A DNA stretch of 19,992 nt from the NCBI GenBank assembly GCA_027858795.1, contig JAQICF010000059.1, positions 1-19,992 of the forward strand. Reading direction: 5' to 3'. The notes under the pieces were generated by a model that saw only the letters and a program-made list of their open reading frames with translations, was not told the DNA's origin and did no database searches. Positions 4,701 to 19,768 of the stretch are shown here, piece by piece. The stretch's first letter is position 1. Each line of letters starts with the position of its first letter. Source of the DNA: Candidatus Delongbacteria bacterium. GTDB lineage: Bacteria; Delongbacteria; UBA4055. Position numbers and translations under genes: made by a program.

Positions 4701-5015
4701 GTTCTGAAACGGTTCATAAAACTTAGTAGATTCATTATCATTTAACTTAATAAATGTTCTAAATCCCTGAGAAGAAGCAAGTTGATACGCTCGATTTGCA
4801 GGCAAAAACTCCATTATCGGATGTTCTTTGTCCTGAATTCCCATACTACAAACACATTGTCCTCTGTTTACATAGAACAGCCACATAGGTATACCTTCTT
4901 TACCAGCTACACCTGGGAAAAAACTTGAGAACAACTTCGCTGAATTGTAGTTCTTTATAATAAATTTACCTGACGCGTCTAACTTGTATTGTATTTCATT
5001 AGAATGGTTCAACAC
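1704..5015 (-). CDS. Cytoplasmic GH94-clan beta-1,3-glucan phosphorylase (GH149- or GH161-like)
   Basis: A 1103-residue protein with no signal peptide. The N-terminal region (about residues 29-70: FFPGVAGKEG, then FYVNRGQCVCSMG) and the very long chain fit the large phosphorylases of the GH94 clan, not ordinary cellobiose phosphorylases (about 800 residues). KPNWYDALNG around D666 matches the position of the general-acid Asp motif (DWND) of GH94 enzymes. HGNGFVARLSGAT from H959 resembles the phosphate-binding region. Phosphorolysis of beta-1,3-oligoglucosides would give glucose-1-phosphate in the cytoplasm, saving ATP. Its neighbours (GH16, GH17, GH30, sugar symporter) strongly favour a beta-1,3-glucan substrate. 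I lean to GH149 on length and context; GH161 is possible. It is the last operon gene. The start is GTG 5015 or TTG 5012; AGGGG upstream is spaced slightly better for the TTG. Confidence 0.8.
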   Translation of the reverse strand: MLNHSNEIQYKLDASGKFIIKNYNSAKLFSSFFPGVAGKEGIPMWLFYVNRGQCVCSMGIQDKEHPIMEFLPANRAYQLASSQGFRTFIKLNDNESTKFYEPFQNHLESIEHDKSQTMIIAPYGLTIEEENHTLGLKFKVEYFNIAQDKFPGLVRKLSIENLNNESVNIDGLDGLPLIIPYGIDNGSLKMIRRLVEAFVEVSNYDTGVPFFRGKVEPSDRPEVVRIKKGNFYVGFENSGSKTKLIAPIVDPVKIFGSQSDYSYPERFLTCSAEELYEGQILENRLPSAMGYFKTEIPSGGTYTYTSIIGHSSSIEELNSLIPIITKNEYIDLKSNTNRELIQTLTQNNFICSQIPVFDRYTRLNFLDNTLRGGFPHTLKGTDSKFALHLFSRKHGDLERDYNDYQLMPTNYSQGNGNFRDVNQNRRNDLLFNPDVKENNVEQFYNLIQLDGFNPLVIKETRFSVSNNESIKPLLGKYFDKYDTEGLFTFLQSPFTPGEITTFFKENKISINGSTESFIADLVKICEKFHDTDYGEGFWSDHWTYNLDLLENYLAVYPEKLSYLLFEKRSFSFYDNPHRVHPREDKYVIWEGKAMQLGSVVFDEKKDKLISERKINKNRVHTDFGKGEVYSTNLLTTFLSLIVNKMASLDPEGVGVELETDKPNWYDALNGLPGILGSSLNETLEIKRHILFLMGSFEVLSMNNESWAVYEELIDFMNTLQELLNSELSPFEFWDKASTAKESYREKTIFGVSGQEKNITISEIKVFFEACLKKLDAGIDKAWNTEEKVISTYFINEVVDYQLIMSNESEIKCNSKGLQCFKAKKFKQIHLPLFLEGPVHYMRCHKNNGNLLSLATSIRKSGLYDKKLKMYKVNASLEDQPMEIGRARTFSPGWFENESIWLHMEYKYMLELLRSGLYDQFYQDFKNVFVPFFDPEVYGRSILENSSFIVTSCNPDTSIHGNGFVARLSGATAEFIHILFLMMIGEKPFSINLEGNLQLKFSPALAGWFFTKEVRKKRLKINDNWQEVEFAENTFSFMFLGSILVTYHNPKMLDTFGKDGATPSKVTVIDNDGVSHEFADGIVTGEITHKIRDRKVNNIKIELA

Positions 5016-5083: not shown

Positions 5084-6448
5084 TTATTTGATCAGCATCA
5101 TACTCTTTGTATCAACTATTTTATTATCTACTGAAAGTCGATAAAAATAGTTTCCTGATGCAACTGCCATTTTATTATCATTTGTTGCATTCCAACTAAC
5201 ATTATAGCTATTTACTGGCAAATTTCCTTCGATAAGAGTTTTTACATGCTGACCATTTGCATCAAACACTTTCAAACTAACATTCCCAGGTTTATTTATT
5301 GAAAATTTAATTGAAGTAGTTGGATTAAACGGATTAGGATAATTCTTTTCTAAAGTATAACCTAACTCATGCGCTTCATCATCAGAAATACCGACAGTAT
5401 TATCATAGAAATATATGTTATCTAAATATACTGTATTTGGATCACCTGCAAGGATCATTTGAGCAAGATGTTCCTTGGTTGTTAGATTTATAAAATCGGT
5501 AAGTGGAATATTAAGACGAACCCAAGTTTCTGTATCCATAATTGTTTCATCCAGAATGATCTCATGTTCCACATCATCTCCACCTCCATATAGACCATCA
5601 GCACCAAAGTCAATGAGCTTAATTTTAAATACTGCAGGATTCGCAGTATCATCAGGTGTCCAGATGTCCATGTGAAGATCTGTCATAGAACTGGCATTTA
5701 TTGGTTCTGAAGTGAATTCAATACCTGCAAAATTAAGGCTTGAATACTTCTTCGTAGCGTTGCTGTCGATATACACATCAGAAACACTTGCATCATCCCA
5801 TCCAGCTGACCATGTATCTACAGTAACATTTGTATATGCATCACTGAATAATGAGATAACACCACTTTCAGATACTGTAGGAGTTGGTGCGGCAACCGTA
5901 GGTTCCGGAGTAGGTGCAGTATTAGCTTCTGGTAGCTGAATATTATCAAAATAAATTATATTATCCTGAGCTCTTGAAGCAAAATCAGGTATAATAGTAA
6001 GTGTACTGTAAGTGTTCCCTATTGAAGCTGAGAAGTCAAAGGTAATCTCTTCCCATTGATCAATTACTGTGTTTGGGACTTGTATTTCAACTGCTGGACT
6101 TGAACCTTCAAACTTTATTCCAATATTACTTATAACAGGTTTGTTAACCATAATTTTGACTGTTGAATTAGAAGCATTAAAAATAAACTCATCAACGCTT
6201 GTGTAACATAAAGCCCAGTCTTGACCTGATGCTCTCGCTGTAAATTTAGCAATTGTTGCTGAAGTATTTATCCCGCTACTCACTGGATTATCAATAAATT
6301 CAACAGCAGGATTGTCCCCGTTTTCACCAACGGTCCATCCCAAGTCCGCTCCTAAACCAGCAGGTTCAAAATCCGCCACTACATATTGTCCGAACATCGC
6401 AGCATTCATCAAAAATATTAGTGGTAAATAAAACATAACTTTCTTCAT
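5084..6448 (-). CDS. Secreted glycan-binding protein with two beta-sandwich domains and a T9SS sorting tail
   Basis: A 454-residue protein. Residues 1-21 form a Sec signal peptide ending MFGQ. Residues 22-172 are a beta-sandwich domain (starts VADFEP, ends IIYFDNIQLP) resembling carbohydrate-binding modules. A Pro/Thr-rich linker follows (173-195, repeated APTP). A second sandwich occupies about 198-350 (starts SLFSDAYTNV, ends TVYLDNIYFYDN). From Y370 to the end is a type A Por-secretion C-terminal domain (YPNPFNPTTSIKF, later GNYFYRL). No catalytic domain is present, so it probably binds glucan at the surface or in the medium after export by a type IX system. The second domain resembles the C-terminal domain of the neighbouring GH16 (shared SSMTDL/SGMTDL motif and YxDxIY ending), which suggests the same ligand. 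GGAGG sits 5 bases before the ATG. It lies 33 bases after GH17 in the same operon. Confidence 0.8.
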   Translation of the reverse strand: MKKVMFYLPLIFLMNAAMFGQYVVADFEPAGLGADLGWTVGENGDNPAVEFIDNPVSSGINTSATIAKFTARASGQDWALCYTSVDEFIFNASNSTVKIMVNKPVISNIGIKFEGSSPAVEIQVPNTVIDQWEEITFDFSASIGNTYSTLTIIPDFASRAQDNIIYFDNIQLPEANTAPTPEPTVAAPTPTVSESGVISLFSDAYTNVTVDTWSAGWDDASVSDVYIDSNATKKYSSLNFAGIEFTSEPINASSMTDLHMDIWTPDDTANPAVFKIKLIDFGADGLYGGGDDVEHEIILDETIMDTETWVRLNIPLTDFINLTTKEHLAQMILAGDPNTVYLDNIYFYDNTVGISDDEAHELGYTLEKNYPNPFNPTTSIKFSINKPGNVSLKVFDANGQHVKTLIEGNLPVNSYNVSWNATNDNKMAVASGNYFYRLSVDNKIVDTKSMMLIK

Positions 6449-6481: not shown

Positions 6482-7585
6482 CTATTGAACATATTTTAGT
6501 TCTTTATTATAGTTAGTGAATGAAATTTTAGGCTTTCTAGTTTCAAAATATACACCCCAGTGCTTTTCAATATCAGTTGAATCAGCTACTTCTCCACCAC
6601 CTTTCCACGGCTCATCAAATGCCTCGAAAAGAAATAGAGTAATGTTATTTTCTTTTGTCCACTGATCAAGTATCTTCAAATACTCCTCCTGACCTTCAAG
6701 ATCGATTTTCCCTTTTATTAGAGTACTCTGCTGACCATCTCCTATCTTTGTTGGATCGTAACTTGTTGCCCAACCTGTTTCACCTAGAACAATCTTTTTT
6801 CCTGAATGCAGATTTTTTATCTTATTAAGAACTTCATTCATCCAGGATTTTGATTCAGCGATTTTCTTACCATTCCATACAGGATGAGCATGATAGGTTA
6901 TAAAATCTATTTCATCTGATACTTTAACACTTACTGAATCACTCCAGAACATATGGTCATCCGCAGTTGTTATCGGAGCTTCAATACTATTCCTGATCGC
7001 TCTTATATAATTTATCAAGTTTTTCTGATCCATCCTATGACCTGACCAAATTACCTGTGTCTCATTTCCTACATTTACTGCTGAGACAATGTCCTTATAT
7101 TTATTTGACAGTTCTACACATCTTATAACATTCTTAATATTGGAATTCTTTCCTTCTGGGTTACCCGATTCTTTAGTAAGCCATACTCCAAGCATCACTT
7201 TAAGTTTTATATTATTTTTACGAATAGTATTCAATACTAATTCTGTATCATTATCTGCATTATAAACTCTTATTATTTTCCAGTATTTTTCGATTATCCT
7301 AAGATCTTCAAGAATCTCTTCCTCTGAAGGTCCTTTACCCCATGGAGCCTGACCTTTTCTGTAGAAACCATAGCTCACACCGTTTCCAATAACACCGTTA
7401 TTAACTTCAGGTGTGAATTTTCTTAATTGGAAATTGTCATCTTTATTAAATTTCTTATTCTGCAAAAGCATTTGCTCCATACTTAAAATGTCAGGTTGCT
7501 TCATTTTTTGAATATCTGTATTGCAACCAGTCAAAAATAGCAGGGCAATTAATATGATATATCGTAGAAGGAGAGTTCTTATCAT
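6482..7585 (-). CDS. GH17 beta-1,3-glucanase lipoprotein
   Basis: A 367-residue protein with a lipoprotein signal (LTGC, lipidated C21). The body is a GH17 TIM barrel (clan GH-A): GNGVSYGFYRKGQAPWG near the start, SAVNVGNETQ with the acid/base E175, and KKIVLGETGWATS with the nucleophile E269. The last match is close to the family's GETGWPS motif. A late FEAFDEPWKG stretch also fits GH17. Members hydrolyse, or sometimes transglycosylate, beta-1,3-glucans. It should be anchored at an outer membrane face and act on laminari-oligosaccharides. Its ATG lies one base after the GH30 stop, so the two are very likely translationally coupled. It follows GH30 and precedes the secreted binder. Confidence 0.9.
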   Translation of the reverse strand: MIRTLLLRYIILIALLFLTGCNTDIQKMKQPDILSMEQMLLQNKKFNKDDNFQLRKFTPEVNNGVIGNGVSYGFYRKGQAPWGKGPSEEEILEDLRIIEKYWKIIRVYNADNDTELVLNTIRKNNIKLKVMLGVWLTKESGNPEGKNSNIKNVIRCVELSNKYKDIVSAVNVGNETQVIWSGHRMDQKNLINYIRAIRNSIEAPITTADDHMFWSDSVSVKVSDEIDFITYHAHPVWNGKKIAESKSWMNEVLNKIKNLHSGKKIVLGETGWATSYDPTKIGDGQQSTLIKGKIDLEGQEEYLKILDQWTKENNITLFLFEAFDEPWKGGGEVADSTDIEKHWGVYFETRKPKISFTNYNKELKYVQ

Positions 7586-7586
7586 A

Positions 7587-9278
7587 TCAATTACCCTTTT
7601 TTGCTAGTTTTACTCTTACTGTCTGAACCGAATTGGCTTTAATACTTATATCTGCACATTGATCACCGATCTGTAATTTGTAATTAATGAGTTTAGATCC
7701 TGTATTAAGCATCTGCACACTTAAAACTCTCTCACTGTTTAAAGTAGCGCAAGCATAGATGGTATCTTTATCAATTCCGTCGAGTTCCAGTGATGTTTGT
7801 ACAGCTTGATCACCAGGTCGTATTGTCCTGCTGAATTGTGATAGAATATCATATATCGGTGTATAGTAAACGAATTGTTTGTCAGTATCTATCATGATCG
7901 GTGCTCCGCAGAAATTACCTACGTGATTCGGACCACCATTCTTATCTAGAACTATATTCCAGTCTATCCAACCTTGAAGCCAGTGATCAATACTTACAAT
8001 AATATTCCTAGCATATCTGTGAACAGGTACATACGCAGGATGATCTTCTACTTTTACTCCTTGCCATGGAACAGTATAAGCCCAGTCTGTTGCATTCTTA
8101 CCCCACCAGAACTCATCGTTGTTAAACCAGTTCTCATCTTTATAACCCTCAGGATCAGAAACTCCTTCTGGAGCATCTTTTCCAAGATCATCAATACAAC
8201 CTTCAGTGTGTATTATTGAAAATTGTGGGAATTTCTCCTTTACAGAGTCAAAAACATCTTCGTAAACTTTATTTGTACTTTCATACCAATGTACAGCTAT
8301 ACCATAAATATACTGCGCTGTTTCCTTGTCATTAAAAAGTACATTTGTCCAGTGCTCAATTCCATCACGGTTCTGATCATAAATAAGAAGTTTTACGTCT
8401 GAATATCCACTTTCTTTCATTTTAGGACCCAGATGATCTTTGATAAATTCATTCTGTGATTCGGGAGTGAAGTTCATGCTTTCCCATTGTCCGTTATTTC
8501 CATAAGGCTCATTTACCGGTGTGATACCCCAGATATTTACACCTTCTTTTTGATATTCCTTTATATACCTTATTATATAATCCGCATAAACTGACTCATA
8601 TTCAGGTTTCAACGATCCACCCGTTCCCTGCCAGCTGTTCTTAGGTGATCCCGGAATATACCACTCTTCGATATCCTTCATCCAGTAAGGTGCAGTCCAT
8701 GCTGAAGAGATTATCCTTAATTCTCCATTCTGTTCTGATTTGATCTTTAAAGCTTCCTTTATCATAGGCATCAGATCATAAGATTCATCTTTGATCCCTG
8801 GATATTCCTTTTTACTAAATCCTTTACTATCACAGGAGATATCAAAAGAGCTAAGATCTGTATCACCTTTTTCATCATCATAGGAATATTTACCTTCAAC
8901 AGTAAAGTCACAGGAACCGATATGTGTTCTGGTTAGAGTAAAATCTGCTCCAGCCTTCCCAAAGATATTCTTCATAACCTCTGATCTTTTCACTGTATCA
9001 AGATGTGCAAGAACAAATGCCGACGATTCTGTAAAAGAAGTACCAATTCCGTCAATAGTCTGCTTGATACTATCTGGGTTTACATTAAGGATAATTCCTG
9101 ATTCGGCATGACCATTTATAAAAGTAACGTTATCTGTTATAGTCATTTTATCCCCTGCTTCAGAAGTAATCAATATCTCTGAAGTTTCGGTTAAATCATA
9201 AGAATTCTCATTACTACATCCAAAGAGGATAACAAACATTATCAAAGATAGAATATATTTAAACATTTTTTCTTTCAT
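7587..9278 (-). CDS. GH30 glucanase lipoprotein (probable beta-1,6-glucanase/beta-glucosidase)
   Basis: A 563-residue protein with a lipoprotein signal (LFGC, lipidated C21). GH30 hallmarks are in order: IDGIGTSFTESSAFVL near residue 75, THIGSCDFT, ITPVNEPYG with acid/base E257, and SIIHTEGC with nucleophile E359. A C-terminal beta-sandwich typical of the family follows from about residue 470. In this locus the likely job is removing beta-1,6 branches from laminarin, as known for GH30 beta-1,6-glucanases; beta-glucosidase activity is the alternative. It starts 6 bases after the symporter stop. ATG 9278 lacks a clear Shine-Dalgarno; the second ATG (residue 5, 9266) would give a more compact signal peptide and is possible. 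Confidence 0.9.
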   Translation of the reverse strand: MKEKMFKYILSLIMFVILFGCSNENSYDLTETSEILITSEAGDKMTITDNVTFINGHAESGIILNVNPDSIKQTIDGIGTSFTESSAFVLAHLDTVKRSEVMKNIFGKAGADFTLTRTHIGSCDFTVEGKYSYDDEKGDTDLSSFDISCDSKGFSKKEYPGIKDESYDLMPMIKEALKIKSEQNGELRIISSAWTAPYWMKDIEEWYIPGSPKNSWQGTGGSLKPEYESVYADYIIRYIKEYQKEGVNIWGITPVNEPYGNNGQWESMNFTPESQNEFIKDHLGPKMKESGYSDVKLLIYDQNRDGIEHWTNVLFNDKETAQYIYGIAVHWYESTNKVYEDVFDSVKEKFPQFSIIHTEGCIDDLGKDAPEGVSDPEGYKDENWFNNDEFWWGKNATDWAYTVPWQGVKVEDHPAYVPVHRYARNIIVSIDHWLQGWIDWNIVLDKNGGPNHVGNFCGAPIMIDTDKQFVYYTPIYDILSQFSRTIRPGDQAVQTSLELDGIDKDTIYACATLNSERVLSVQMLNTGSKLINYKLQIGDQCADISIKANSVQTVRVKLAKKGN

Positions 9279-9284
9279 TATTCA

Positions 9285-10727
9285 TTACGCCGTTACTTTA
9301 TTTTCTTCATCTGCATGTCTTTTATCCAGTTCAACACGTATCTCATGCGATCTTTTTTCTGTAAGATCATAGTTCCACATGACTGCGATCGCTATTAAAG
9401 TTCCCAGTATAGGAAGACCTGAATAGAAAAGTCTCAGTCCTGTCAGTGCAAAGGTTGTCTGTTCCGCTGCATCCTGATTGAAACCGACCAGAGACATAAT
9501 CAGTCCACTTGAAAGACCGGCAAATGCAAGCCCAAACTTGACCATCCACCAATATATCGCTCCGAATATTCCTTCCCGTCTCTGGTGTGAATTAAGTTCA
9601 TCTAGATCACAAACATCAGCTGTCATTGACATCATAAGAGTAAAAAGCCCTCCTATACCGAATGAGAAGAAAGGTAGTGGCAAAAGTATCCAATAAGGAC
9701 TTATACCTGGCTTTAAACACCACCAGAATAAGATGTATCCCAGAATTGATATACTCTGAGATATTAAGAAGGTCTTTCTCTTACCAATTTTTTGAGAGAT
9801 TTTTGATACAATTGGAATAACTATAAAAGTAGTACACAAAGCTCCGATCATTCCATGTAGCGTTGGCCATGGATTAGCGGCACCCTGATCTCCTGCAAAT
9901 GTGTAATGTACTATTATGAAGAATGAGAAAGCTGCTATAGTATTAAATGCATTGAATACTAAAAAAGTAGATATACATAATTTTCTAAAAGGACCATTGC
10001 TAAAAGCTTCTTTAAAGCTTTTGAATATAGATTTTAAGCTCTTCTTTACATTCTTTAAGTTGAGATCCTCATAATCTTTCTCATCTGTAGTAGGTCTGCT
10101 TTTTACGAAAATAGCAGGTACAATAGCTAGAATAAGACAAAATATTCCCACCCATACAGCAAGCTGTCTTGATCCTGCAGCTGGTGAGTCGAACCAGTCC
10201 TGACTGTATATTACAACCCAGAACCATGGTGCAATTACCCATGCCCACTGTCCTATCCACTGAGCTACCGCCATTATCCTGGTTCTCTCATGATAGTCAT
10301 TGCTCATCTCGTAACCCATTGCAACATAAGGAACACTGAATATCGTTAATCCAAGATAAAATGTAAGAGAAAATATCATAAAATAAATGAAATTGTAAAC
10401 AATTCCGTTCTCTATGTGAAGCTGCCACATGAAAATAAAAGAAAGTCCGGTAATGATCGCTCCCAAAAATACATACTGTCTTCTCCGTCCCCATTTAGAT
10501 CTTGTGTTATCAGATATAAATCCCATGATCGGGTCGGTTATGGCATCGAATAGACGAGGAAAGAAAAATATTATACCCCACAGCCATGGAGGAAATCCCA
10601 GTCCGCTTACCAATACTACCATGAATATTCCCAGAGCTGCAGGAAACATCTGATTTGCAAGCATACCTATACCAAAAGCAATTTTCTGTCCCATAGGTAT
10701 TGTATTTGTTTTATTAGTATCAGTCAT
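9285..10727 (-). CDS. GPH-family (MelB-like) cation:glycoside symporter
   Basis: A 480-residue inner-membrane protein with about 12 hydrophobic segments. The family signature follows TM2: FDAITDPIMGFISD with D61 and D65, spaced like the cation-site pair D55/D59 of MelB, then SKWGRRRQY. A cytoplasmic loop rich in Lys/Asp lies near residues 213-245. GPH carriers import glycosides with Na+ or H+. Placed between GH16 and GH30 and upstream of a cytoplasmic phosphorylase, it most likely imports laminari-oligosaccharides intact. ATG 10727 is preferred over TTG 10730 because AGGAG lies 5 bases before it. It begins 27 bases after the GH16 stop. Confidence 0.9.
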   Translation of the reverse strand: MTDTNKTNTIPMGQKIAFGIGMLANQMFPAALGIFMVVLVSGLGFPPWLWGIIFFFPRLFDAITDPIMGFISDNTRSKWGRRRQYVFLGAIITGLSFIFMWQLHIENGIVYNFIYFMIFSLTFYLGLTIFSVPYVAMGYEMSNDYHERTRIMAVAQWIGQWAWVIAPWFWVVIYSQDWFDSPAAGSRQLAVWVGIFCLILAIVPAIFVKSRPTTDEKDYEDLNLKNVKKSLKSIFKSFKEAFSNGPFRKLCISTFLVFNAFNTIAAFSFFIIVHYTFAGDQGAANPWPTLHGMIGALCTTFIVIPIVSKISQKIGKRKTFLISQSISILGYILFWWCLKPGISPYWILLPLPFFSFGIGGLFTLMMSMTADVCDLDELNSHQRREGIFGAIYWWMVKFGLAFAGLSSGLIMSLVGFNQDAAEQTTFALTGLRLFYSGLPILGTLIAIAVMWNYDLTEKRSHEIRVELDKRHADEENKVTA

Positions 10728-10754
10728 CAATACTCCTGTTTGAAAATATTTATA

Positions 10755-12947
10755 TTACCTTATATATATGTCATCAAAATAAAGTGAACCATAGATCAGA
10801 TTATTTCCACTGTTGAAAGGATTTACGAAAAGCAAATATTTGATAGCTGAAAGATCAACTGCAGAGAAATCTGACAATGGGATCTCATACTTAGACCAGT
10901 CACCTGTTATTATAGGAGTATATGAATAAAGGTCCAACTCAACTTGACTACCGGCATTATCTTCGAACTTTAACCATAAGTGTGCAAGGTCAGTCATACC
11001 TGAAGAATTAATATTCACTACAACTGTGGTGTATGAGGATATATCATGAAGGTAAGAGCTGTAATCGAATGCAATACCAGCCCACGATCCGTTAATATAT
11101 GTAAAATCAACAGCCAGAACATAAGTACCATCAACTGGAGTAACTGCTGTACTCATGACATCAGGAGAGGCTCCGTCACCACTCCAGTTTGCACTGTTAA
11201 TTATTGTTGTATAGTTAAGCGTTATATCGTTGTGTGACTCTGTATACACACCAGCAGTTTCTTCAATTGAGCTTACTTCAATTATTGCATTAGCACTTCT
11301 CTGGACACCGTAACTATCTAAATATTTTATATTTATTTTATCATTTTCAGATATCTCTATCGTATCAGTTGCATCATCTGTAGTCCCGAAATTAATTCGT
11401 CCTTTGCCGACGCCCATAGGATCAATGTTTATATCAATATTTATCGTATCTACATCATTTATCACTTGAACTGTTACTAAAGTGTTTGCAGCATCAATAT
11501 CTGAAACTGTTATATCGGTTCCTGTTGAATCTACAGTAATTGTTTCTGAATCGAAAATTATACTATTAGCTGGGGACCCGCCACCAGTCCAATAGATATC
11601 ATCAATTGCAAATTCACATTGAATACCACTCTCTTCAATAAATACAAATTCATAATTCAGCATCTCAAGGTCAACATTGCCTTTTATATCTTTAACCGGA
11701 ATGACAACCTGACCCCATTCCCCGTCCCTTTTCAAATCATATATATTTTGACCTGCAGGGAAAAGTACATAGCTCTCATTATTTTCAGAATCAATAATAC
11801 CTATTTTAAATGTTACATTTGCAGGTATCTTTATCATAAAATTGATATTGCCGCTTTCAAAATCTGAAAGGTCTAATGGTTGGTTTGATGCAATTCCTCC
11901 ACCAAACCATCCCTCTCCGGTAGTACTGAATGTCATACCGTTATCACCTTCATAGGGTAATATATTTCCTGCTGTCAATGTATTTTCCCATACATATATC
12001 TGCGCATCAGCTCCAACTGTTAATTCTGCATCGACAGGTGTATTATCTGTAAATATACCATAAGTTTTTATTGTCTCATTCTCATTTGCAACCTGATACG
12101 CTCTCACCCAGTCAACATACATCATCTGGGGCCATTCTGTAGTAGCATCAGGTGCTCCACCCAATGTTCCTCCAACAGCTACATTAAAGATCATGAAGAA
12201 CTTATTGAAATATTCAGACATCTCTACAGGATCAATAACTTTTATAAAAAATGTTATCCCGTCTATCTTTCCAACGATCCTTAGCTGATCCCATTCAATT
12301 TCGTATACATGGTAATCATCACTAAGAGGGACACCAATATCCTTATTAGCAGTATATGACTGAGGATATGGAGAGCTTTCAATTCCCCAGTGAGCTGCAA
12401 ATATTGTTGTACTTGTATTCAACATATAAGGGCTTACTTCCATAATATCGATCTCTCCACAATTCGGCCAACTTACAGTATCAACATTTTTTCCCAACAT
12501 CCAGAAAGCAGGCCACATTCCCATCCCGGTAGGAACTTTAATTCTTGCCTGTATTTTACCATATCTGAGATCAAATTTATCTTTTGTATTAACTCTTGAA
12601 GATGTTACTGAACCATCTCTTTTACCTGGTGTGGAAAAATTTACTGAATCGAATATAGCTGCGATAACCATATTCCCATTTTCTACCTTAATATTTTCAG
12701 AGGAATTGGTATATAACTCCCATTCGTCATTACCCCATCCATCATTACCATAACCTGTCTCAATATTCCAATTTTCAGGATCAAGTGCTGTAGTATCCTG
12801 ATCAAATTCATCAGACCATATAAGAGTGTAATTTGATGATGGGACAATATCATCAACAGGGTCTGGTTCAGTAGCCATATCACAATTGTATAAGAATAAC
12901 GAAAAAAATGAAATAATTAATAATATGCTGAATTTTACCATTTTCAT
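10755..12947 (-). CDS. GH16 laminarinase-like multidomain lipoprotein
   Basis: A 730-residue protein. The signal ends in LYNC (C22), an atypical lipobox with Tyr and Asn before Cys. Residues 41-286 are the GH16 jelly roll: LIWSDEFD at the start, catalytic GEIDIMEVS (E165, D167, E170), and DWVRAYQ at the end (W280). The EIDIME form is that of laminarinases (endo-beta-1,3-glucanases). Residues about 290-455 form a beta-sandwich resembling the ExoP-type galactose-binding domain found in marine laminarinases (IYVWENTL, GEGWFGGGI). Residues about 456-560 look Ig-like, with many Asp and Thr. Residues about 565-730 form another sandwich similar to domain 2 of the secreted binder. It is the first gene of the operon, with GGAGG 8 bases before the ATG and an operator-controlled promoter upstream. 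It should make the first cuts in the polymer. Confidence 0.9.
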   Translation of the reverse strand: MKMVKFSILLIISFFSLFLYNCDMATEPDPVDDIVPSSNYTLIWSDEFDQDTTALDPENWNIETGYGNDGWGNDEWELYTNSSENIKVENGNMVIAAIFDSVNFSTPGKRDGSVTSSRVNTKDKFDLRYGKIQARIKVPTGMGMWPAFWMLGKNVDTVSWPNCGEIDIMEVSPYMLNTSTTIFAAHWGIESSPYPQSYTANKDIGVPLSDDYHVYEIEWDQLRIVGKIDGITFFIKVIDPVEMSEYFNKFFMIFNVAVGGTLGGAPDATTEWPQMMYVDWVRAYQVANENETIKTYGIFTDNTPVDAELTVGADAQIYVWENTLTAGNILPYEGDNGMTFSTTGEGWFGGGIASNQPLDLSDFESGNINFMIKIPANVTFKIGIIDSENNESYVLFPAGQNIYDLKRDGEWGQVVIPVKDIKGNVDLEMLNYEFVFIEESGIQCEFAIDDIYWTGGGSPANSIIFDSETITVDSTGTDITVSDIDAANTLVTVQVINDVDTINIDINIDPMGVGKGRINFGTTDDATDTIEISENDKINIKYLDSYGVQRSANAIIEVSSIEETAGVYTESHNDITLNYTTIINSANWSGDGASPDVMSTAVTPVDGTYVLAVDFTYINGSWAGIAFDYSSYLHDISSYTTVVVNINSSGMTDLAHLWLKFEDNAGSQVELDLYSYTPIITGDWSKYEIPLSDFSAVDLSAIKYLLFVNPFNSGNNLIYGSLYFDDIYIR

Positions 12948-12984: not shown

Positions 12985-13013
12985 CATCGCACATAAGACA
13001 CGGCTGTGCGATG
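12985..13013 (-). promoter_or_regulatory. 5'-terminal stem-loop of the GH16 operon leader
   Basis: CATCGCACA (12985-12993) and TGTGCGATG (13005-13013) form a perfect 9-bp stem with an 11-base loop. Given the predicted -10 at 13023-13028, transcription would start near 13016, which puts the stem almost at the 5' end of the mRNA. Such stems are known to protect long messages from decay (as in ompA). A second protein-binding palindrome is the alternative. Confidence 0.6.
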
Positions 13014-13033
13014 CTATATAGCAATATATTGCT
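13011..13033. promoter_or_regulatory. Operator O1 (two overlapping palindromes) on the GH16 promoter
   Basis: TGCTATATAGCA (13012-13023) is a perfect palindrome, read TTGCTATATAGCAT on the minus strand. It overlaps a second perfect palindrome, AGCAATATATTGCT (13020-13033). Both share the GCAA/TTGC arms. The site covers the -10 and start region, so a bound regulator would block transcription. The same core precedes the GH-barrel fusion gene and the regulator itself. Confidence 0.75.
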
Positions 13034-13246: not shown

Positions 13247-13260
13247 TTGCATTATAGCAA
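13247..13260. promoter_or_regulatory. Operator O2 in the regulator's own leader
   Basis: TTGCATTATAGCAA has the same TTGC/GCAA arms and 6-base AT centre as O1 and O3. It lies just after the predicted start of transcription, so it would give negative autoregulation by road-block. Confidence 0.65.
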
Positions 13261-13294
13261 TTCATCTCTAATAATTTTACAACGGATCCAATCA

Positions 13295-14350
13295 ATGAAC
13301 AGTATGCCACCTAAATATATAAGAGTTAAAAATTTGATAAAAGATGGTATTCGAAATGGATCCAATGTAGATAAACTTCCCGGTGAAAGAGTTCTTGCCA
13401 AGAAGTTTGAGGTGTCATATATGACGATCAGAAAAGCAATAGCTGAATTAGTAGACGAGGGGATCCTTCATAAAAACACAACTAAAGGAACTTATGTCTG
13501 TCACAGAAAAATGACACCTAAAACTACTTTCAACATAGGATTCTATCTTGACAGCAGAATAAAGGAAGGAATTTCAAGTCCCTATTACTCAATGATATTC
13601 AACGCTTTAGAAAATAAAGTCAAACAAAAAGATTATAACTTAACATTATTTTCAGATTTTGACGACCTTAATCCTTTAAATAATCAAAAGAAGATAGATG
13701 GAGTAATTATAAGTTGTTTTCCTAGAATTGAAGCTAAGATACAGGATCTTAAAGATCTTATACCCATCGTTCTTATGGACAATATTGCTTCTGACAAATC
13801 TATTCCGTCTGTTACAATTGATAATTTCAGTAGTAGTGTCGAGGCAATAAAGTATCTTTGTTCGTTGGGTCATGAGAGAATTGCTTTCATATCAGGACTA
13901 ATGGATTCTTCCGTATGCAAAGAAAGATATCATGGCTACACACATATACTGTCAAATCTTGGAATAAAATTAGATAAATTGATCGTTATCAAAGGTGATT
14001 ATTCTTATCAATCTGGTGAGGTTGCAGCAAAACATCTTCTTTCTTTAACTGACCCTCCTACTGCAATTATGTGTGCCAATGACTCTATGGCCATCGGAGC
14101 AATGAAGGTTATACAGGAGAACGGGTTGAAAATACCTGATGACATTAGTGTTATCGGTTTTGATGACATCAAAGTAGCATCAAGAGTTTATCCTTCTCTT
14201 TCGACTATAGCAGCCCCTATAAATGAAATTGCCTCAAAATCAGTAGAAATGCTTACAGCAATAATTGATGGGAATGATCTTGACTACCAGCATTCAATCC
14301 TGCCAGCGACATTAATTCTCAGAAGTTCATGCGGACCTGCAAAAAAATAA
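13295..14350 (+). CDS. GntR/LacI hybrid transcriptional regulator of the glucan locus
   Basis: A 351-residue protein. Residues about 6-70 are a GntR winged helix (KYIRVKNLI, then LPGERVLAKKFEVSYMTIRKA and EGILHKNTTKGTYV). Residues about 79-348 are a LacI/periplasmic-binding-type effector domain (starts NIGFYLDS; later CANDSMAIGAM, ISVIGFDDI and the SLSTI stretch). This is the architecture of AraR-type repressors, which are released by a sugar. The likely inducer is a laminari-oligosaccharide or derivative (inference). It lies between two enzyme units that carry the same palindrome as its own leader, so repression with autoregulation is the simplest reading. ATG 13295 is chosen, with a weak GGA 8 bases before it; ATG 13304 is an alternative. 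Confidence 0.88.
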   Translation: MNSMPPKYIRVKNLIKDGIRNGSNVDKLPGERVLAKKFEVSYMTIRKAIAELVDEGILHKNTTKGTYVCHRKMTPKTTFNIGFYLDSRIKEGISSPYYSMIFNALENKVKQKDYNLTLFSDFDDLNPLNNQKKIDGVIISCFPRIEAKIQDLKDLIPIVLMDNIASDKSIPSVTIDNFSSSVEAIKYLCSLGHERIAFISGLMDSSVCKERYHGYTHILSNLGIKLDKLIVIKGDYSYQSGEVAAKHLLSLTDPPTAIMCANDSMAIGAMKVIQENGLKIPDDISVIGFDDIKVASRVYPSLSTIAAPINEIASKSVEMLTAIIDGNDLDYQHSILPATLILRSSCGPAKK

Positions 14351-14448: not shown

Positions 14449-14460
14449 GCTATATAGCGA
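14447..14460. promoter_or_regulatory. Operator O3 before the GH-barrel fusion gene
   Basis: TTGCTATATAGCGA differs from a perfect palindrome at one base. It overlaps the end of the -10 and the start of transcription. The 12 bases TTGCTATATAGC are identical to O1 read on its own promoter strand. Confidence 0.7.
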
Positions 14461-14518: not shown

Positions 14519-17500
14519 ATGGTACTAAAAAACATGATTACTAATATAAAGAGCATATATCGGTTCACTACGATATTCCTGTTGCTAAGTTTGTACATAA
14601 CCGGTTATGCTGGATCAGTTGACAGAGTAAATACATATCAGGATAAAAACGGATGGAAACTTCAGGTCAACGGAAAGGATTTTCTTGTAAAAGGAATGGT
14701 ATGGGGTTATGCACCAATCGGTGAGAACTATTCTTATAACTTATGGGCAAATTCAGATGAACAGATCAAGAAGATACTTGACTACGAATTCGAATTAATG
14801 AAAGCTGCAGGAGTTAATGCTATCAGATCTTTCGGTACTATTCCTCCAAGGTGGGTTACTTATATATATGAAAATTACGGTATCATGACCATAATGAACC
14901 ATCTAATGGGAAGATATGGGTTTACTGTGGGAGGTTCATGGATAGTTTCTGTAAATTATTCAGATGAACTTACTAGAAAGACAATTTTAGAAGATTTCAA
15001 AGAAATGGTACTGAAATATAAGGATACTCCCGGTATTTTAATGTTTGCACTTGGAAATGAAAATAACTATGGTCTTGAATGGTCTAGTTTTGAGATAGAG
15101 AATTTTCCTGAAGGTGAACGCCATAAAGAAAAAGCAAAGTACCTTTATTCATTATATAATGAAACAATTAAGGGAGGTAAATCACTTGATACCAACCATC
15201 CATTTACTATCGTGAATGGTGATATCCAATATATCGATATTATCAAGGAATATTGTACAGAACTCGATATCCTTGGAGTGAATGCATACAGAGGGATCAG
15301 CTTCACTGACATGTGGAAAAGAGTTAATACTGAACTTGGATTACCTGTTATGTTGACTGAATTCGGAAGTGATGCTTTCAATGCAGTTACATTTATGGAA
15401 GAGCAGGATGGACAGGCTGAAATTGTCAGGGGTAACTGGAATGAGATTTATAATAAATCTTATGGAAAAGGGGAGGAAGGTAACGCTATAGGAGGATGTC
15501 AATTCGAATGGCGTGACGAATGGTGGAAATACCTTCAGACTGAAAATCTTTTTATACATGACACAAATGCTTCCTGGGAAAATGGAGGATATTCTTTCGA
15601 TTTTGTTCACGGTCAGAACAATATGAACGAGGAATGGTACGGTATATGTGCATTGGGTAATCCAAATGAAGACGGAGTTTATGTTGCTGAACCCCGAATG
15701 GCGTATTATGTGCTTAAGCATATTTGGAGTATTGATCCTTACTTGGTAAGCAAATCTGAAATGAATGACAATCTCAATATGATAGATATGAATCTCCTGA
15801 GCATAAAAAGCAACCTTGATCTTGCAAAGAAGGACATTAAAGAATTAAAAGCATTCAGACTTACCGGAGGAAATCTTCAGGGAGACATGGTCTTTAACGG
15901 AATGTCTGAAGATTTTGAACTCAACGGTAAGAATGGATTGGATTTCTCTAATGGAGAAATGCTTTTTCTTGATTTCGAATTCCAACCGACAAAGAATATT
16001 TCAGGAGATTTTTCTATAAATATATTAGGAAATGTAGCTGATAAGAAGATGGAGCAGTATTACGGTAAGCGTGGTGAATCTTTTACTACTGTTACTTCTG
16101 ATCTGGATCCGGCTGGACTTGTTGTTACAACAGAAAAACAGATCATAGCTAATGAACGGATTGAAATATATGATTTTCAAGCTCAATATCGTCATAAGAT
16201 GTTTGATCTTACAAGTTTTTACCATGTACCGAGATACCACTGGGGATATGATGGAGATTTTTTCGGACTTTTGTATGAAGCAACAGATATGGAAGGTATG
16301 GATATTTGGAATGATAAAGCACCTTACGGGTTTGAATTTAAAGGAAAAAGATCTCTTAACGGACTTACTCTTGTAGCCGGTCCGGAAGTTTACTGGGGGG
16401 CAAATCCTAAAGCTATCGTTAAATATGATTTCAATGACAGTATATTTGATTATACCATCATTCATTCCGAAGACTTTGCCAGAGCTGAAGCATCTTCTAC
16501 TGCAACTGAGTCAACTGAAAGAGCTACGAGACAAAGTGCGATATATCTAAAAACAGATATTTTTTCAGCGTCTACACTGGAGATCGGTTATCTTTTCTCC
16601 GGTAGTGAGAAAATAGGTGAAGAATACTATTATGTTGATGATGATGTAGTTTACAAAAATGAGATAGAATTAAAAGATACTCAAGGAATTAAAGGAAAAA
16701 TTACTATAAAAGCATATGGCGGAGCAATTCTTGATGCTAGCGTTACTTATGCAGGTCTTGTAGCTGATGGAGGAGATCCTCTGCGTGAATTCGATACAAC
16801 TGTTCCATATTCAGGACTTGGTAATAAATTTGTAGCAGAAGGTGGTATTCTTTATCCTATAGGAGATTTTTGGATCATGCCTAGATATTTTTATAGAAAA
16901 AACCTGCTTGATGCAACATATAATATCGAACCTTCAATTGTCGGTTCTACCCTTTACCCCGGATTAACTCCGAGAAACCGTGATAGTGATCCTTTTGCAG
17001 TTCTTGATAACAGGGAGGCTGTAGCCGGTGAGTTATTTTTTACTTACGATCCTACTCCCGGTAGTTATTTTTACGCATGGGATAATGATCAGCAGGAAGA
17101 TGCAGGATTTGCTTTCAGCATAGGGGGCAACTATACGAGTTATAAAACAGATACTGATTCTCATTTATTTTATTATCAGGAAGGGAAAACGAATGCTCCA
17201 TTTGGTGTTGGACTAAAAGCAAGTGATGTATGGCTGGCAAAAGGCAGATTTCTAATGAATCCTGATCCAAATTTTAAAATAATAACTAATATAGAAGCAG
17301 GAAAACAACAGACAACAGGTGTTCCAGGCTACGATCCAGCAGAATACTTTTCTGTTGATGCTAAATTTATAATAAATAAAAAACACATATTATCCGGATA
17401 TGCGAAAAAAGATGCATGGGGTCCGCTTGACTGGTATAGACAGTTCAATATAACTTATCCTTATCAGTTCATGTTCGATTATTCAATGCTTATCGATAAT

Positions 17501-17644
17501 ATCCTGGATGATATTCTTTCAAGTAGAATTGGTATCAAAGCACTGTATCGAACTCTTGATGAAAATGCGCCTGATAATGAGTGGGAAGGTGGAGCAAATG
17601 ACTATATGTTCCAGGCTGGTGTGTACTATAAAATAGATTTTTAG
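14519..17644 (+). CDS. Fusion of a clan GH-A glycosidase-like TIM barrel with an outer-membrane beta-barrel
   Basis: A 1041-residue protein. Residues 1-31 form a Sec signal peptide (ITGYA end, no lipobox Cys). Residues about 35-405 are a TIM barrel resembling GH2/GH5/GH72-type clan GH-A enzymes: NGKDFLVKGMVWGY, AAGVNAIRSFG, FALGNENNYG with Asn-Glu acid/base E181, ILGVNAYRGIS, and VMLTEFGSDA with nucleophile E281. A short helical, coiled-coil-like stretch (about 410-445) follows. The last 600 residues show repeated amphipathic, aromatic-ended strands with Gly/Asp turns and finish in YYKIDF, the C-terminal Phe signature of outer-membrane barrels. I cannot assign a GH family. The enzyme part should hydrolyse or transglycosylate beta-glucan next to a pore formed by its own chain (inference). 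GGAG lies 7 bases before ATG 14519. It shares the GH16 operator and is followed by a lipoprotein gene. Confidence 0.8.
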   Translation: MVLKNMITNIKSIYRFTTIFLLLSLYITGYAGSVDRVNTYQDKNGWKLQVNGKDFLVKGMVWGYAPIGENYSYNLWANSDEQIKKILDYEFELMKAAGVNAIRSFGTIPPRWVTYIYENYGIMTIMNHLMGRYGFTVGGSWIVSVNYSDELTRKTILEDFKEMVLKYKDTPGILMFALGNENNYGLEWSSFEIENFPEGERHKEKAKYLYSLYNETIKGGKSLDTNHPFTIVNGDIQYIDIIKEYCTELDILGVNAYRGISFTDMWKRVNTELGLPVMLTEFGSDAFNAVTFMEEQDGQAEIVRGNWNEIYNKSYGKGEEGNAIGGCQFEWRDEWWKYLQTENLFIHDTNASWENGGYSFDFVHGQNNMNEEWYGICALGNPNEDGVYVAEPRMAYYVLKHIWSIDPYLVSKSEMNDNLNMIDMNLLSIKSNLDLAKKDIKELKAFRLTGGNLQGDMVFNGMSEDFELNGKNGLDFSNGEMLFLDFEFQPTKNISGDFSINILGNVADKKMEQYYGKRGESFTTVTSDLDPAGLVVTTEKQIIANERIEIYDFQAQYRHKMFDLTSFYHVPRYHWGYDGDFFGLLYEATDMEGMDIWNDKAPYGFEFKGKRSLNGLTLVAGPEVYWGANPKAIVKYDFNDSIFDYTIIHSEDFARAEASSTATESTERATRQSAIYLKTDIFSASTLEIGYLFSGSEKIGEEYYYVDDDVVYKNEIELKDTQGIKGKITIKAYGGAILDASVTYAGLVADGGDPLREFDTTVPYSGLGNKFVAEGGILYPIGDFWIMPRYFYRKNLLDATYNIEPSIVGSTLYPGLTPRNRDSDPFAVLDNREAVAGELFFTYDPTPGSYFYAWDNDQQEDAGFAFSIGGNYTSYKTDTDSHLFYYQEGKTNAPFGVGLKASDVWLAKGRFLMNPDPNFKIITNIEAGKQQTTGVPGYDPAEYFSVDAKFIINKKHILSGYAKKDAWGPLDWYRQFNITYPYQFMFDYSMLIDNILDDILSSRIGIKALYRTLDENAPDNEWEGGANDYMFQAGVYYKIDF

Positions 17645-17659
17645 AATTTGGAGGAATTT

Positions 17660-18280
17660 ATGTTAAAGAAATTGATTTATGTCGGATTGATCTTGTCAAT
17701 AATTTTTATATCAGGCTGTGATGTTAAGAACGGTACTGATGCTACTGAAATAGAACTTCCTTTAGATAATGAACTGACTTTGTATAGTGAAAATGTTGGT
17801 TTATACCCTGATAAAAGTATTCTGGACGATCCGAACAATCCATATGCTGATGCAAGCCTTAATATGGAAAATGTATGGGACCTGAACGATGAATGCCCTT
17901 CTCCAAAAGCGAAATTCTATCTTTGGGCTACTGTTACAGCAAAGTTCCCTACCGGTGAGCATCAGTATTACACAGCTCTTTCATTGCACGAATTATATAC
18001 TGCAGGCGGTAGTTTAAACGCAAAAGAGCAAGCAATAAAAGCTTATCGTTCAGTTCTCGATCATTTTTTTGATTCAACTACTTGGTTTCTAGCCGATTGG
18101 CTTGGTGAAGAAACTTATTACCCTGTTATTCTGAGAGACATGGTTGGTAGAAATTTGTACGATCCATCTGAATTTAATTATCTACCTTTCTACAATGATC
18201 CGGCATTTGCACTTCAGGACATAGGTGAATGGGGCTATGTTTATGATCAGGAAGCAGGTAAGTTATCAAGATACCAATAA
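17660..18280 (+). CDS. Lipoprotein partner of the GH-barrel fusion, unknown function
   Basis: A 206-residue protein with a lipoprotein signal (FISGC, lipidated C20, followed by Asp). The mature part begins with an acidic, Asn/Asp-rich segment (LDDPNNPYADASLNM). A helical region at about 85-135 (from PKAKFYLWATVTAKF to AYRSVLDHFF) could be one or two TPR-like hairpins, and the C-terminal part is rich in Trp and Tyr. I do not recognise a family. It starts 15 bases after the fusion gene and is certainly co-transcribed with it. A TPR-like lipoprotein beside an outer-membrane barrel recalls AlgK/AlgE-type pairs, but here the context is glucan breakdown. ATG 17660 is chosen because GGAGG (17650-17654) lies 5 bases before it; TTG 17648 overlaps that site and is rejected. 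Confidence 0.75.
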   Translation: MLKKLIYVGLILSIIFISGCDVKNGTDATEIELPLDNELTLYSENVGLYPDKSILDDPNNPYADASLNMENVWDLNDECPSPKAKFYLWATVTAKFPTGEHQYYTALSLHELYTAGGSLNAKEQAIKAYRSVLDHFFDSTTWFLADWLGEETYYPVILRDMVGRNLYDPSEFNYLPFYNDPAFALQDIGEWGYVYDQEAGKLSRYQ

Positions 18281-18292
18281 AAATCTCTCTCC

Positions 18293-18331
18293 AAAAAAAA
18301 GTGGTTATTCTAACGAATGCCACTTTTTTTT
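18293..18331. terminator. Bidirectional terminator between convergent genes
   Basis: GTGG (18301-18304) and CCAC (18320-18323) form the base of a stem extended by ATTC/GAAT, flanked by eight A's on the left and eight T's on the right. It serves both the + strand lipoprotein operon and the minus-strand symporter. Confidence 0.8.
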
Positions 18332-18355
18332 ATTTTAAATAAATAGCACAAATAC

Positions 18356-19768
18356 TTAAATCTTTATCTTACTATTATTTATATTATATATTTGTGAAAT
18401 TATCCAAGAAGCAGACAATGAAACTACCAAATTGATAATTACATAGGCATGGACTGCAAGGTCTTTAATAAAAATAACTGAAGCAATTGAACAGACCGCT
18501 CCAATAATTGTACCCCAGAATACTCCTGCTGATGTTATCTTCTTTGAGAACATACCTAAAACGATCAAAGATAGTATCGGTGCACCGAATCCGTGTATGA
18601 TTTTGTTGGCTACAACAAAAATACTACCTTCTGCTGCCATGATCGGTATTAGGATCAAAGCACCCGTTAAAGAAATAATCCCTAATATAAAAGTTCCTGA
18701 TTTACCTTTATTCACCGTACTGAATAATTTTATATCCTCAGAAAGTACAGCCGACATAGCATTCAGACCGGAATCAATAGAACTCATTGAAGCTGCAAGT
18801 AAAGCCGCTATGAACAAACCCGTAACACCTGTAGGCATTGATTGAATAAAAAACACCATTTGCTTTAACGGTGGTAATGATGATTGACCCGGAATAAGCG
18901 TTACTGTTATCCCCCAGAGTAAAAGAAGTGTCAGAATGACTAGAGCAGCTCCTGCATTCAATAATATCGCTTTCTTTGCTTCTTTTTCAGATTTAGCTGC
19001 CATATATCTTTGAATTGTTATCTGATCGGCTCCGTATCTCGCCATAAAAGCTATGAATGTTCCAGTCAGTCCACTCCAGAAAGTAATTCTCACTTTGGGG
19101 CTGAATGAGTAGAAATCATCTGGGAAAGGATGTTTTGAGAACCAGTCTCCTAAAGAATCTATCGAAAGAAAACCATTGCTGATAGCTACTCCCAATGTCA
19201 GGCATATTGTTCCGAATAATATAAAGAACTGAAGCAGGTCGGTAGTTACCACTGCCCTGAACCCACCAATAGAAGAGTAGAATAAAGCTGTGATCCCGGT
19301 TACTATGATAATGATATATAAAGGAATTCCAGTAAAGACCATCAACATTTTAGCTGAAGCGTACAATGTTACAGAGATCCACATTAGTCTCCAGATTACA
19401 AATAATACAGTTGCAAGATGTTTGGTTTTAACATCATACTTTTCTTCTAGAAAACTGTATGCAGAAAAACTTTTTCTTTTCCTGAAAAATGGTATAAACC
19501 ATTTAAATAGTGGATATATTACAATAATAAAAACAGGCAGTGAAATAAGAACTGCAGGTCCAAATTTGATTATCTCAGAAGGGAACGCTACAAAATTGAC
19601 AGCACTGAATGCTGATATCATTACTGATATTCCTAGCGGAAACCAGGAAAATGTATTACCTGCAAGATACAACTGATCATTGTCTTTACTTTTTTTTGAA
19701 CTGTAGATCCCTATTGAGATTACTATCAGTAGATATATTAAAGCTATGATTATTTCTATTTTGTTCAT
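18356..19768 (-). CDS. Sodium:solute symporter (SSS/SLC5 family)
   Basis: A 470-residue inner-membrane protein with about 13 hydrophobic segments. Family features include IGIYSSKKSKDNDQLYLAG after TM1, the SSIGGFRAVVTTD stretch, ARYGADQITIQRYMAAKSE, and SMSSIDSGLNAMSAVLSED around D332, which fits the conserved Na+-site region of TM8. The substrate cannot be read from sequence: sugars, sialic acid, carboxylates and amino acids are all transported by this family. It faces the glucan locus tail to tail, and no copy of the locus palindrome lies upstream, so I see no sign that it belongs to the regulon. A GAG lies 7 bases before the ATG at 19768. Confidence 0.85.
   Translation of the reverse strand: MNKIEIIIALIYLLIVISIGIYSSKKSKDNDQLYLAGNTFSWFPLGISVMISAFSAVNFVAFPSEIIKFGPAVLISLPVFIIVIYPLFKWFIPFFRKRKSFSAYSFLEEKYDVKTKHLATVLFVIWRLMWISVTLYASAKMLMVFTGIPLYIIIIVTGITALFYSSIGGFRAVVTTDLLQFFILFGTICLTLGVAISNGFLSIDSLGDWFSKHPFPDDFYSFSPKVRITFWSGLTGTFIAFMARYGADQITIQRYMAAKSEKEAKKAILLNAGAALVILTLLLLWGITVTLIPGQSSLPPLKQMVFFIQSMPTGVTGLFIAALLAASMSSIDSGLNAMSAVLSEDIKLFSTVNKGKSGTFILGIISLTGALILIPIMAAEGSIFVVANKIIHGFGAPILSLIVLGMFSKKITSAGVFWGTIIGAVCSIASVIFIKDLAVHAYVIINLVVSLSASWIISQIYNINNSKIKI

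Follow-up and report, generated by a model that had tools for sequence, protein, structure and literature searches.

A glycosidase fused to a predicted outer-membrane beta-barrel in bacterial beta-glucan loci, and its possible role in glucan uptake

Results

Architecture of the fusion protein

We analysed 19,992 nucleotides from Candidatus Delongbacteria bacterium (GenBank assembly GCA_027858795.1, contig JAQICF010000059.1; the whole stretch is called the window). By its predicted gene content the window is a beta-glucan locus, in which the minus strand encodes enzymes and a symporter, and the plus strand a regulator, a fusion protein and a lipoprotein. The fusion gene joins a glycosidase of clan GH-A (GH, glycoside hydrolase family) to a predicted outer-membrane beta-barrel in a single chain, and forms a two-gene unit with the lipoprotein gene:

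14449..14458, plus strand: operator-like palindrome GCTATATAGC before the fusion
14519..17644, plus strand: fusion gene, GH-A glycosidase and outer-membrane barrel, 1041 amino acids (open frame, predicted structure)
14519..14611, plus strand: Sec signal peptide, residues ~1-31 (read from the translation; N-terminal helix in the model)
14627..15748, plus strand: clan GH-A TIM barrel, residues ~37-410
15059..15061, plus strand: E181, predicted acid/base, preceded by invariant N180 (alignment)
15359..15361, plus strand: E281, predicted nucleophile (alignment)
15752..15844, plus strand: helical linker, residues 412-442 (model)
15854..17641, plus strand: outer-membrane beta-barrel, residues 446-1041, 24-26 strands, without a Pfam family
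16223..16324, plus strand: conserved aromatic loop, residues 569-602, on the predicted extracellular side; candidate glycan-binding or constriction loop
17660..18280, plus strand: TPR-like lipoprotein, 206 amino acids, Cys20
18293..18332, plus strand: hairpin between A and T runs, probable terminator after the two-gene unit (read directly)

An AlphaFold2 model of the fusion was built on a hand-chosen alignment of 89 sequences and reached a mean predicted local distance difference test score (pLDDT) of 87.2 and a predicted template modelling score of 0.75. It consists of a TIM domain (residues ~37-410), helices (412-442) and strands (446-1040). The original prediction, made from the letters of the window, had described a signal sequence, a TIM barrel with both catalytic Glu, a helical connector and a barrel ending in Phe; the model agrees with it, as does the alignment, in which N180, E181 and E281 are unchanged in 89/89 sequences. 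The translation ends in ...YYKIDF, and a C-terminal Phe is found in 66 of the 89 sequences. The model and the homologues confirm that the fusion of a TIM domain with a predicted membrane barrel is real, conserved and widespread, and apparently it has been overlooked as a barrel.

In an alignment with GH158 enzymes, N180, E181 and E281 fall on the catalytic N/E and E, which in BuGH158 are N136, E137 and E220 (PMC7157763). An N-E acid/base and an E nucleophile in a TIM barrel, as found here, are a trait of GH158 that is common to other clan GH-A families. A GH158 profile matched the domain over part of its length (expectation values, E, of 4e-8 and 3e-7), and GH157/GH158 laminarinase folds were among the top structural matches, with GH157 and GH2 scoring as high in structure. 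Identity to the GH158/GH157 endo-beta-1,3-glucanases (BuGH158, GH158(Pro), LaGH157) is ~20%. Where BuGH158 carries a C-terminal Ig-like domain (PMC7157763), the fusion has none and continues from residue 412 with the linker and then the membrane barrel. The N-terminal sugar-binding and Ig-like domains of GH2 (PF02837, PF00703) are absent; the TIM domain follows on the signal peptide, and PF02836 (the GH2 TIM domain) is the sole Pfam match of the window fusion.

Two side observations concern related enzymes near the fusion. A TIM-domain paralogue lacking the barrel (~440-630 amino acids) lies near the fusion in 20 of 80 loci (e.g., L004, L010, L012, L015), often immediately behind the lipoprotein gene. 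In Sediminicola luteus (L070, 2664-5420) a GH2 enzyme with PF02837 and PF00703 is encoded upstream of the fusion.

The barrel half and the side on which the enzyme lies

In the C-terminal half 24 membrane strands were read, or 26 if the weak hairpin 522-542 is counted. Hydrophobicity alternates along the strands, with a mean contrast of 2.38 against a mean of 1.26 and a maximum of 1.91 in 500 within-strand shuffles (26-strand reading). The loops alternate as well, the long ones averaging 22.2 and the short ones 5.9 residues in the 24-strand reading (Mann-Whitney p 0.0002) and 18.8 and 5.8 residues in the 26-strand reading (p 0.0003); exceptions on the short side are the loops 844-863 (20 residues) and 992-1002 (11). 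The barrel has no matching family in Pfam or NCBIfam. Foldseek aligned it with the outer-membrane channels BtuB, ChuA, chitoporin and AlgE, and the transmembrane beta-barrel typical of the outer-membrane porin/channel class is predicted for it. Foldseek also aligned multi-domain beta-galactosidases over long stretches with low TM-score, which could be taken to mean that the C-terminal half consists of stacked, soluble beta-sandwich domains, the fold that the original prediction itself had set against its own reading. The continuous run of 24-26 strands, its matches to outer-membrane channels and the alternation of both hydrophobicity and loop length argue for a membrane barrel, and we regard the beta-sandwich explanation as hardly credible.

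The original prediction had left open on which side of the membrane the enzyme lies. In outer-membrane barrels the long loops face outward, so that strand 1, to which the linker and the TIM domain are attached, would start from the periplasm. The loop lengths of the model therefore make it more likely that the linker lies on the periplasmic side and that the cut is made at the inner mouth; the even strand count and the short turns on the linker's side were counted in favour of the importer described below. A TIM domain is, by its general dimensions, probably larger across than the lumen of such a barrel and would therefore cap the opening. The enzyme may thus lie at the periplasmic mouth of a barrel that may be open to glucan. 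Two points weigh against this: loops may possibly form an inner plug, and the passenger could be carried outward through the lumen.

The latter point leads to the main rival explanation, a glucanase displayed on the cell surface, with the barrel serving mainly as anchor, the linker helix running up the lumen as in an autotransporter, and the enzyme outside feeding porins or SusC/SusD. Helix 424-442, just before strand 1, could span the pore, the neighbouring GH16 and carbohydrate-binding module (CBM) lipoproteins are plausible surface proteins, and some loci do carry SusC/SusD. However, the barrel domain of type V autotransporters has 12 strands and an anchor needs far fewer than the 24-26 of the model; no autotransporter barrel domain was matched in the fusion by Pfam, and in the DNA examined many loci lack another candidate for import across the outer membrane.

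Barrel-only relatives also speak against a mere anchor. The aromatic-rich loop 569-602 has a mean column conservation of 0.80, compared with 0.41-0.77 for the other outer loops except the short loop 624-630 (0.91). In 12 barrel-only relatives (P0335, P0339, P0341, P0344, P0346, P0348, P0350-P0355; ~580-599 amino acids, 36-38% identical) this loop is 74% identical, whereas identity is 21% in the stretch preceding it and 33% in the one that follows. The five of these proteins that were read have a signal sequence and no TIM domain; the relatives have nothing to anchor and yet retain the loop, which suggests an independent function of the barrel. The gene neighbourhood of the barrel-only relatives was not found in 369 class-level and 390 and 63 order-level genomes, where the long frames matched were fusions, or in one case a shorter frame near a contig end. 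Taken together, we consider surface display unlikely, although it is the alternative with the most in its favour.

The partner lipoprotein

Between the stop codon of the fusion and the first possible start of the lipoprotein gene lie three bases. The start is most likely the ATG at 17660, behind GGAGGAA, rather than the TTG at 17648. Cys20 is invariant in 82/82 lipoprotein sequences; since the residue at +2 after the Cys varies (D 34, G 22, E 11, Y 6, S 5, A 2, N 1, Q 1; n = 82), no sorting was inferred. Neither Pfam nor NCBIfam has a family for the protein. The SusD family domain is absent from it; searched against this library, six genuine SusD proteins gave E values of 4e-28 or lower. Its model is helical and confident (pLDDT 91.4), with a weak resemblance to TPR proteins. 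The hairpin at 18293-18332 was not flagged by a consensus terminator scan, the loop limit of which is 8.

In 59 of 73 sequences, the window included, a profile search found the lipoprotein gene as the next one after the fusion. Counted were sequences with at least 600 bases downstream, so that 7 of 81 were dropped as too short; L079 was also left out, its fusion frame having been missed by the open reading frame (ORF) caller, though the lipoprotein is present. The pairing that had been claimed from the window therefore holds for most sequences, with the corrected start codon. The remaining 14 show that the fusion can lack the lipoprotein, and they count against the importer favoured below: it is missing in all 9 Bacteroidota, in L062 and L066, and in the Gammaproteobacteria L043, L045 and L047, and whole-genome searches did not find it in four of these (L043, L045, L047, L066). 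Among 369 genomes drawn from the class to which a Woeseiaceae bin belongs (this starting genome included), exactly the same 4 match both the barrel (E <=1e-20) and the lipoprotein (E <=1e-5), and no lipoprotein was found without the barrel, with at most 8 candidates scored per genome. From this co-occurrence and the fusions that lack a lipoprotein, the lipoprotein seems to depend on the fusion and not the reverse. Its proposed function as a lid or plug is unsupported. In 20 flavobacterial loci a carbohydrate-binding protein, mostly with a lipobox by eye, stands in its place. Larger versions of the lipoprotein, of 446 and 385 amino acids, are encoded in two loci (L017, 13152-14492, and L035, 12994-14151) and have an extra stretch between two parts matched by the profile.

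Locus content, operator and distribution

The other genes and the second palindrome of the window are:

1704..5015, minus strand: GH149-like beta-1,3-glucan phosphorylase (NF058639, E 5e-41, under the curated cut-off)
5084..6448, minus strand: secreted protein with type IX sorting domain
6482..7585, minus strand: GH17
7587..9278, minus strand: GH30, nearest NCBIfam model endo-1,6-beta-glucanase, under its cut-off
9285..10730, minus strand: GPH-type sugar symporter
10755..12947, minus strand: GH16 (lipobox by eye)
13013..13022, plus strand: palindrome GCTATATAGC before the GH16 gene
13247..14350, plus strand: regulator with GntR-type DNA-binding domain and LacI-type sensor domain

In the window alone the two copies of GCTATATAGC are not beyond chance, as 26 of 200 shuffles reach two matches with at most one mismatch. 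Across the 81 sequences, 57 exact copies occur in 29, against 0-2 in 12 shuffles, and the operator that had been proposed for the two-gene unit thus recurs far beyond the window. The palindrome precedes the fusion in 12/12 sequences of Cloacimonadota and Delongbacteria (window included) and the GH16 gene in 8 of these, and all 20 copies there are placed in one of the two positions. It recurs in loci of Gammaproteobacteria, the Geobacter type and Mariprofundus, and is absent, among the 81 sequences, from the Myxococcota and Bacteroidota and from a large branch of Gammaproteobacteria that includes Woeseiaceae. We infer that the GntR/LacI-type regulator of the locus may bind this TGCTATATAGCA palindrome.

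In a protein search 2741 of 7994 scored candidates matched at E <=0.001, 120 of them being listed; the loci from reference genomes are the best 80 of 232, many of which end at contig ends. The 75 long fusions come from Pseudomonadota (40), Myxococcota (10), Bacteroidota (9), Cloacimonadota (8) and Thermodesulfobacteriota (3), and one each from Delongbacteria, Spirochaetota, Zixibacteria, an unassigned bacterium and the window. Hosts of homologues include desulfuromonads, and the fusion is present in named strains of Flavobacterium, Chryseobacterium and Myxococcus. Database annotations (e.g., beta-galactosidase, hypothetical protein) hide the barrel half. In a quick FastTree phylogeny of 75 rows, which gave composition and long-branch warnings, each phylum with several rows formed one group, and there is no sign in this tree of recent transfer between phyla. 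In the same tree the window groups with Delongbacteria and Cloacimonadota, and its locus does not look to be of the Bacteroidetes type.

Of 397 genomes from the family to which Sediminicola luteus belongs (treated here as Flavobacteriaceae), 87 match the fusion (E <=1e-60), 83 of them over the barrel and four over the TIM part only (G911, G1038, G1061, G1120). The fusion is rare in Gammaproteobacteria, where barrel-only queries matched 4/369, 1/390 and 5/63 genomes in three draws (starting genome included).

The window gene clusters recur in the 80 loci (the window not counted): GH149 in 39, GH17 in 32, GH30 in 29, the symporter in 29 and the regulator in 37. Representative loci add GH3, GH1 and Opp-type ATP-binding cassette (ABC) importers by Pfam, the latter in Leucothrix and Corallococcus. 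Catabolic beta-glucan neighbours are found in Cloacimonadota, Gammaproteobacteria, Geobacter, Myxococcota and Bacteroidota, so that the recurrence of the fusion beside the lipoprotein and beta-glucan genes, expected from the window, extends over several phyla. For 20 flavobacterial loci, hand-picked among the 87 genomes, the gene order is fusion, CBM-type protein, GH16 in 20/20, and GH149 is seen in 18/20.

These neighbours bear on a further explanation, namely that the barrel exports a polysaccharide, in the manner of alginate or cellulose secretion, and that the enzyme trims it. In favour of this, the barrel matched AlgE, and certain export pores come with a TPR lipoprotein, as AlgE does with AlgK. 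However, the neighbours are hydrolases, a phosphorylase and importers, and no synthase or glycosyltransferase family was matched among 39 neighbour proteins scanned; SKN1/KRE6 ('beta-glucan synthesis-associated') matches only together with GH16. Homologues confined to the vicinity of polysaccharide synthases, which would have told against the uptake idea, were thus not what we found, and a role in export or synthesis is very improbable.

TonB-dependent receptors and SusC/SusD near the fusion

The fusion contains no plug domain (PF07715), and a plug profile built from 20 receptors has no match in the window. The profile matches 4 of the 81 sequences, and no plug was detected in the other 77; only in 32 of the 81 does the sequence continue for 9 kb or more in each direction from the fusion, and receptors further out or past contig ends are missed. 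This limit weighs against reading the loci as receptor-free, as do the lone receptors 8-11 kb from the fusion in four Gammaproteobacteria loci (L025, L027, L029, L037) and the flavobacterial loci described next.

A plug lies within ~8 kb on either side of the fusion in 6 of the 20 flavobacterial loci (L145, L150, L153, L156, L158, L159) and a SusD in 6 (L150, L153, L156, L158, L159, L160); both occur together in five loci. A further 14 flavobacterial loci, L145 among them but not L160, were extended by up to 10 kb per side. L152 then showed a SusC-length receptor 9-10 kb upstream, in line with the gene run of the fusion, and L143 and L146 showed SusC-length receptors 13-17 kb from it; L155 has a 763-residue frame in an adjoining piece and L151 a weak match nearby (E 3e-4). 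Altogether, 7 of 20 loci have SusC/SusD in the gene run of the fusion, with the SusD itself confirmed in 6 of them. The other 13 yielded neither a SusD nor, within ~8 kb, a SusC-length receptor, although L145 among them has a 776-residue receptor-type frame downstream. At the level of genomes, 26 of 27 fusion-bearing genomes hold between 2 and 100 plug-bearing receptors somewhere, and none was found in the Geobacter bin G009 (bins may be incomplete). The genomes searched from Cloacimonadota, the Geobacter type and Mariprofundus hold 0-8.

The fusion therefore often occurs without SusC/SusD but not always, and the two are not mutually exclusive. The separation from SusC/SusD that the original prediction had proposed stands for many loci and fails for the seven flavobacterial runs, and these, together with the lone receptors in the four Gammaproteobacteria loci, indicate that the fusion is not simply a substitute for the pair.

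It might instead be an auxiliary of a SusC/SusD-type system, which processes glucan near a TonB-dependent transporter and whose own barrel does not transport. This explanation accounts for the shared gene run in 7/20 loci, the SusC-length receptors 13-17 kb away in two more and the presence of plug-bearing receptors somewhere in nearly all of the fusion-bearing genomes. It fits poorly with the 13 flavobacterial loci just described and with the small number of receptors in the Cloacimonadota, Geobacter-type and Mariprofundus genomes, one of which had none, and we think it improbable.

Discussion

A possible route of glucan uptake

We tentatively favour the view that the fusion is an outer-membrane beta-1,3-glucan importer with its own glucanase, independent of TonB and working by a hydrolysis ratchet at the inner mouth, and give this view close to an even chance of being right. 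In such a scheme, secreted or surface GH16 enzymes would first shorten a laminarin-type glucan, and the wide barrel would take in the chains, guided by conserved aromatic loops at the outer mouth. The GH-A domain, joined by a helix to the periplasmic end of strand 1, would sit below the pore and cut the emerging chains, so that they could not slide back. Cutting would in this way drive transport by stopping back-diffusion, a one-way ratchet paid for by hydrolysis that needs no TonB plug. GH17 and GH30 would complete the work in the periplasm, a symporter or an Opp-type ABC importer would move the oligosaccharides inside, and GH149 would phosphorolyse them. The TPR-like lipoprotein, where present, may be an accessory that assembles or positions the pore.

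The wider claim, that this is a new kind of importer in which a glycosidase at the periplasmic mouth of a TonB-independent pore drives one-way uptake of beta-glucan in several phyla and in about one fifth of the Flavobacteriaceae genomes sampled, is possible, and we hold it with considerable doubt. The fusion is a concrete candidate to explain how laminarin, an important storage glucan of algae, passes the outer membrane of bacteria whose laminarin loci lack a SusC/SusD pair; if the ratchet is true, uptake across the outer membrane would be powered without TonB.

Comparison with known systems

The architecture fits within the known outer-membrane glycan channels and transporter-enzyme fusions, and it would be an importer of a new kind if the ratchet is right. 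SusC/SusD importers likewise consist of an outer-membrane barrel and a lipoprotein in a glycan locus, but the two-gene unit has no plug domain and no SusD family match, and its enzyme is covalently attached. GluM of Corallococcus, the homologue of M. xanthus Oar, would belong to a different family. It is an outer-membrane beta-barrel with beta-1,6-glucanase activity (PMC10971235, PMC11319602) and shares with the fusion the combination of such a barrel with a beta-glucanase and its occurrence in myxobacteria.

FbGH17b of Formosa is an inner-membrane major facilitator superfamily (MFS) transporter of 12 helices fused to GH17, and its authors knew of no other fusion of a transporter with a carbohydrate-active enzyme (PMC6246565). 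As is proposed for the fusion, it joins a transporter and a laminarin-cutting enzyme in one chain, in laminarin-induced flavobacterial loci; unlike the fusion, FbGH17b has another transporter, another enzyme family and the opposite domain order, and it lies in the inner, not the outer membrane. The laminarin loci of Formosa are close to TonB-dependent receptors and SusD (PMC6246565). Laminarin loci that resemble polysaccharide utilization loci but have no susCD are reported for Colwellia (PMC10811738), and seven laminarin loci with a single SusC have been described in Woeseiaceae (PMC12175321).

A laminarin locus of Muricauda comprises LuxR, GH2, GH16, GH149, GH17 (GH17A, GH17B), GH30_1, MFS and a PKD protein, and its order was likened to that of a laminarin-induced Formosa cluster (PMC13188888). 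The same order resembles that of our flavobacterial fusion loci. Since the window fusion matches Pfam only through the GH2 TIM domain, the protein published as 'GH2' is probably the fusion itself. It is described there as an enzyme, and 'outer membrane' and 'porin' do not appear in the main text (PMC13188888). The literature matches listed, which do not extend to subscription papers and preprints, include no account of an outer-membrane barrel joined to a glycosidase.

Two frames at the margins of the window complete the inventory. A sodium:solute symporter gene (18356-19768, minus strand) is convergent with the two-gene unit and has a homologue, among the 80 loci, only in L017. An ORF at 3-761 on the minus strand, which runs off the window, looks by eye to be thioredoxin-like and ApbE-like.

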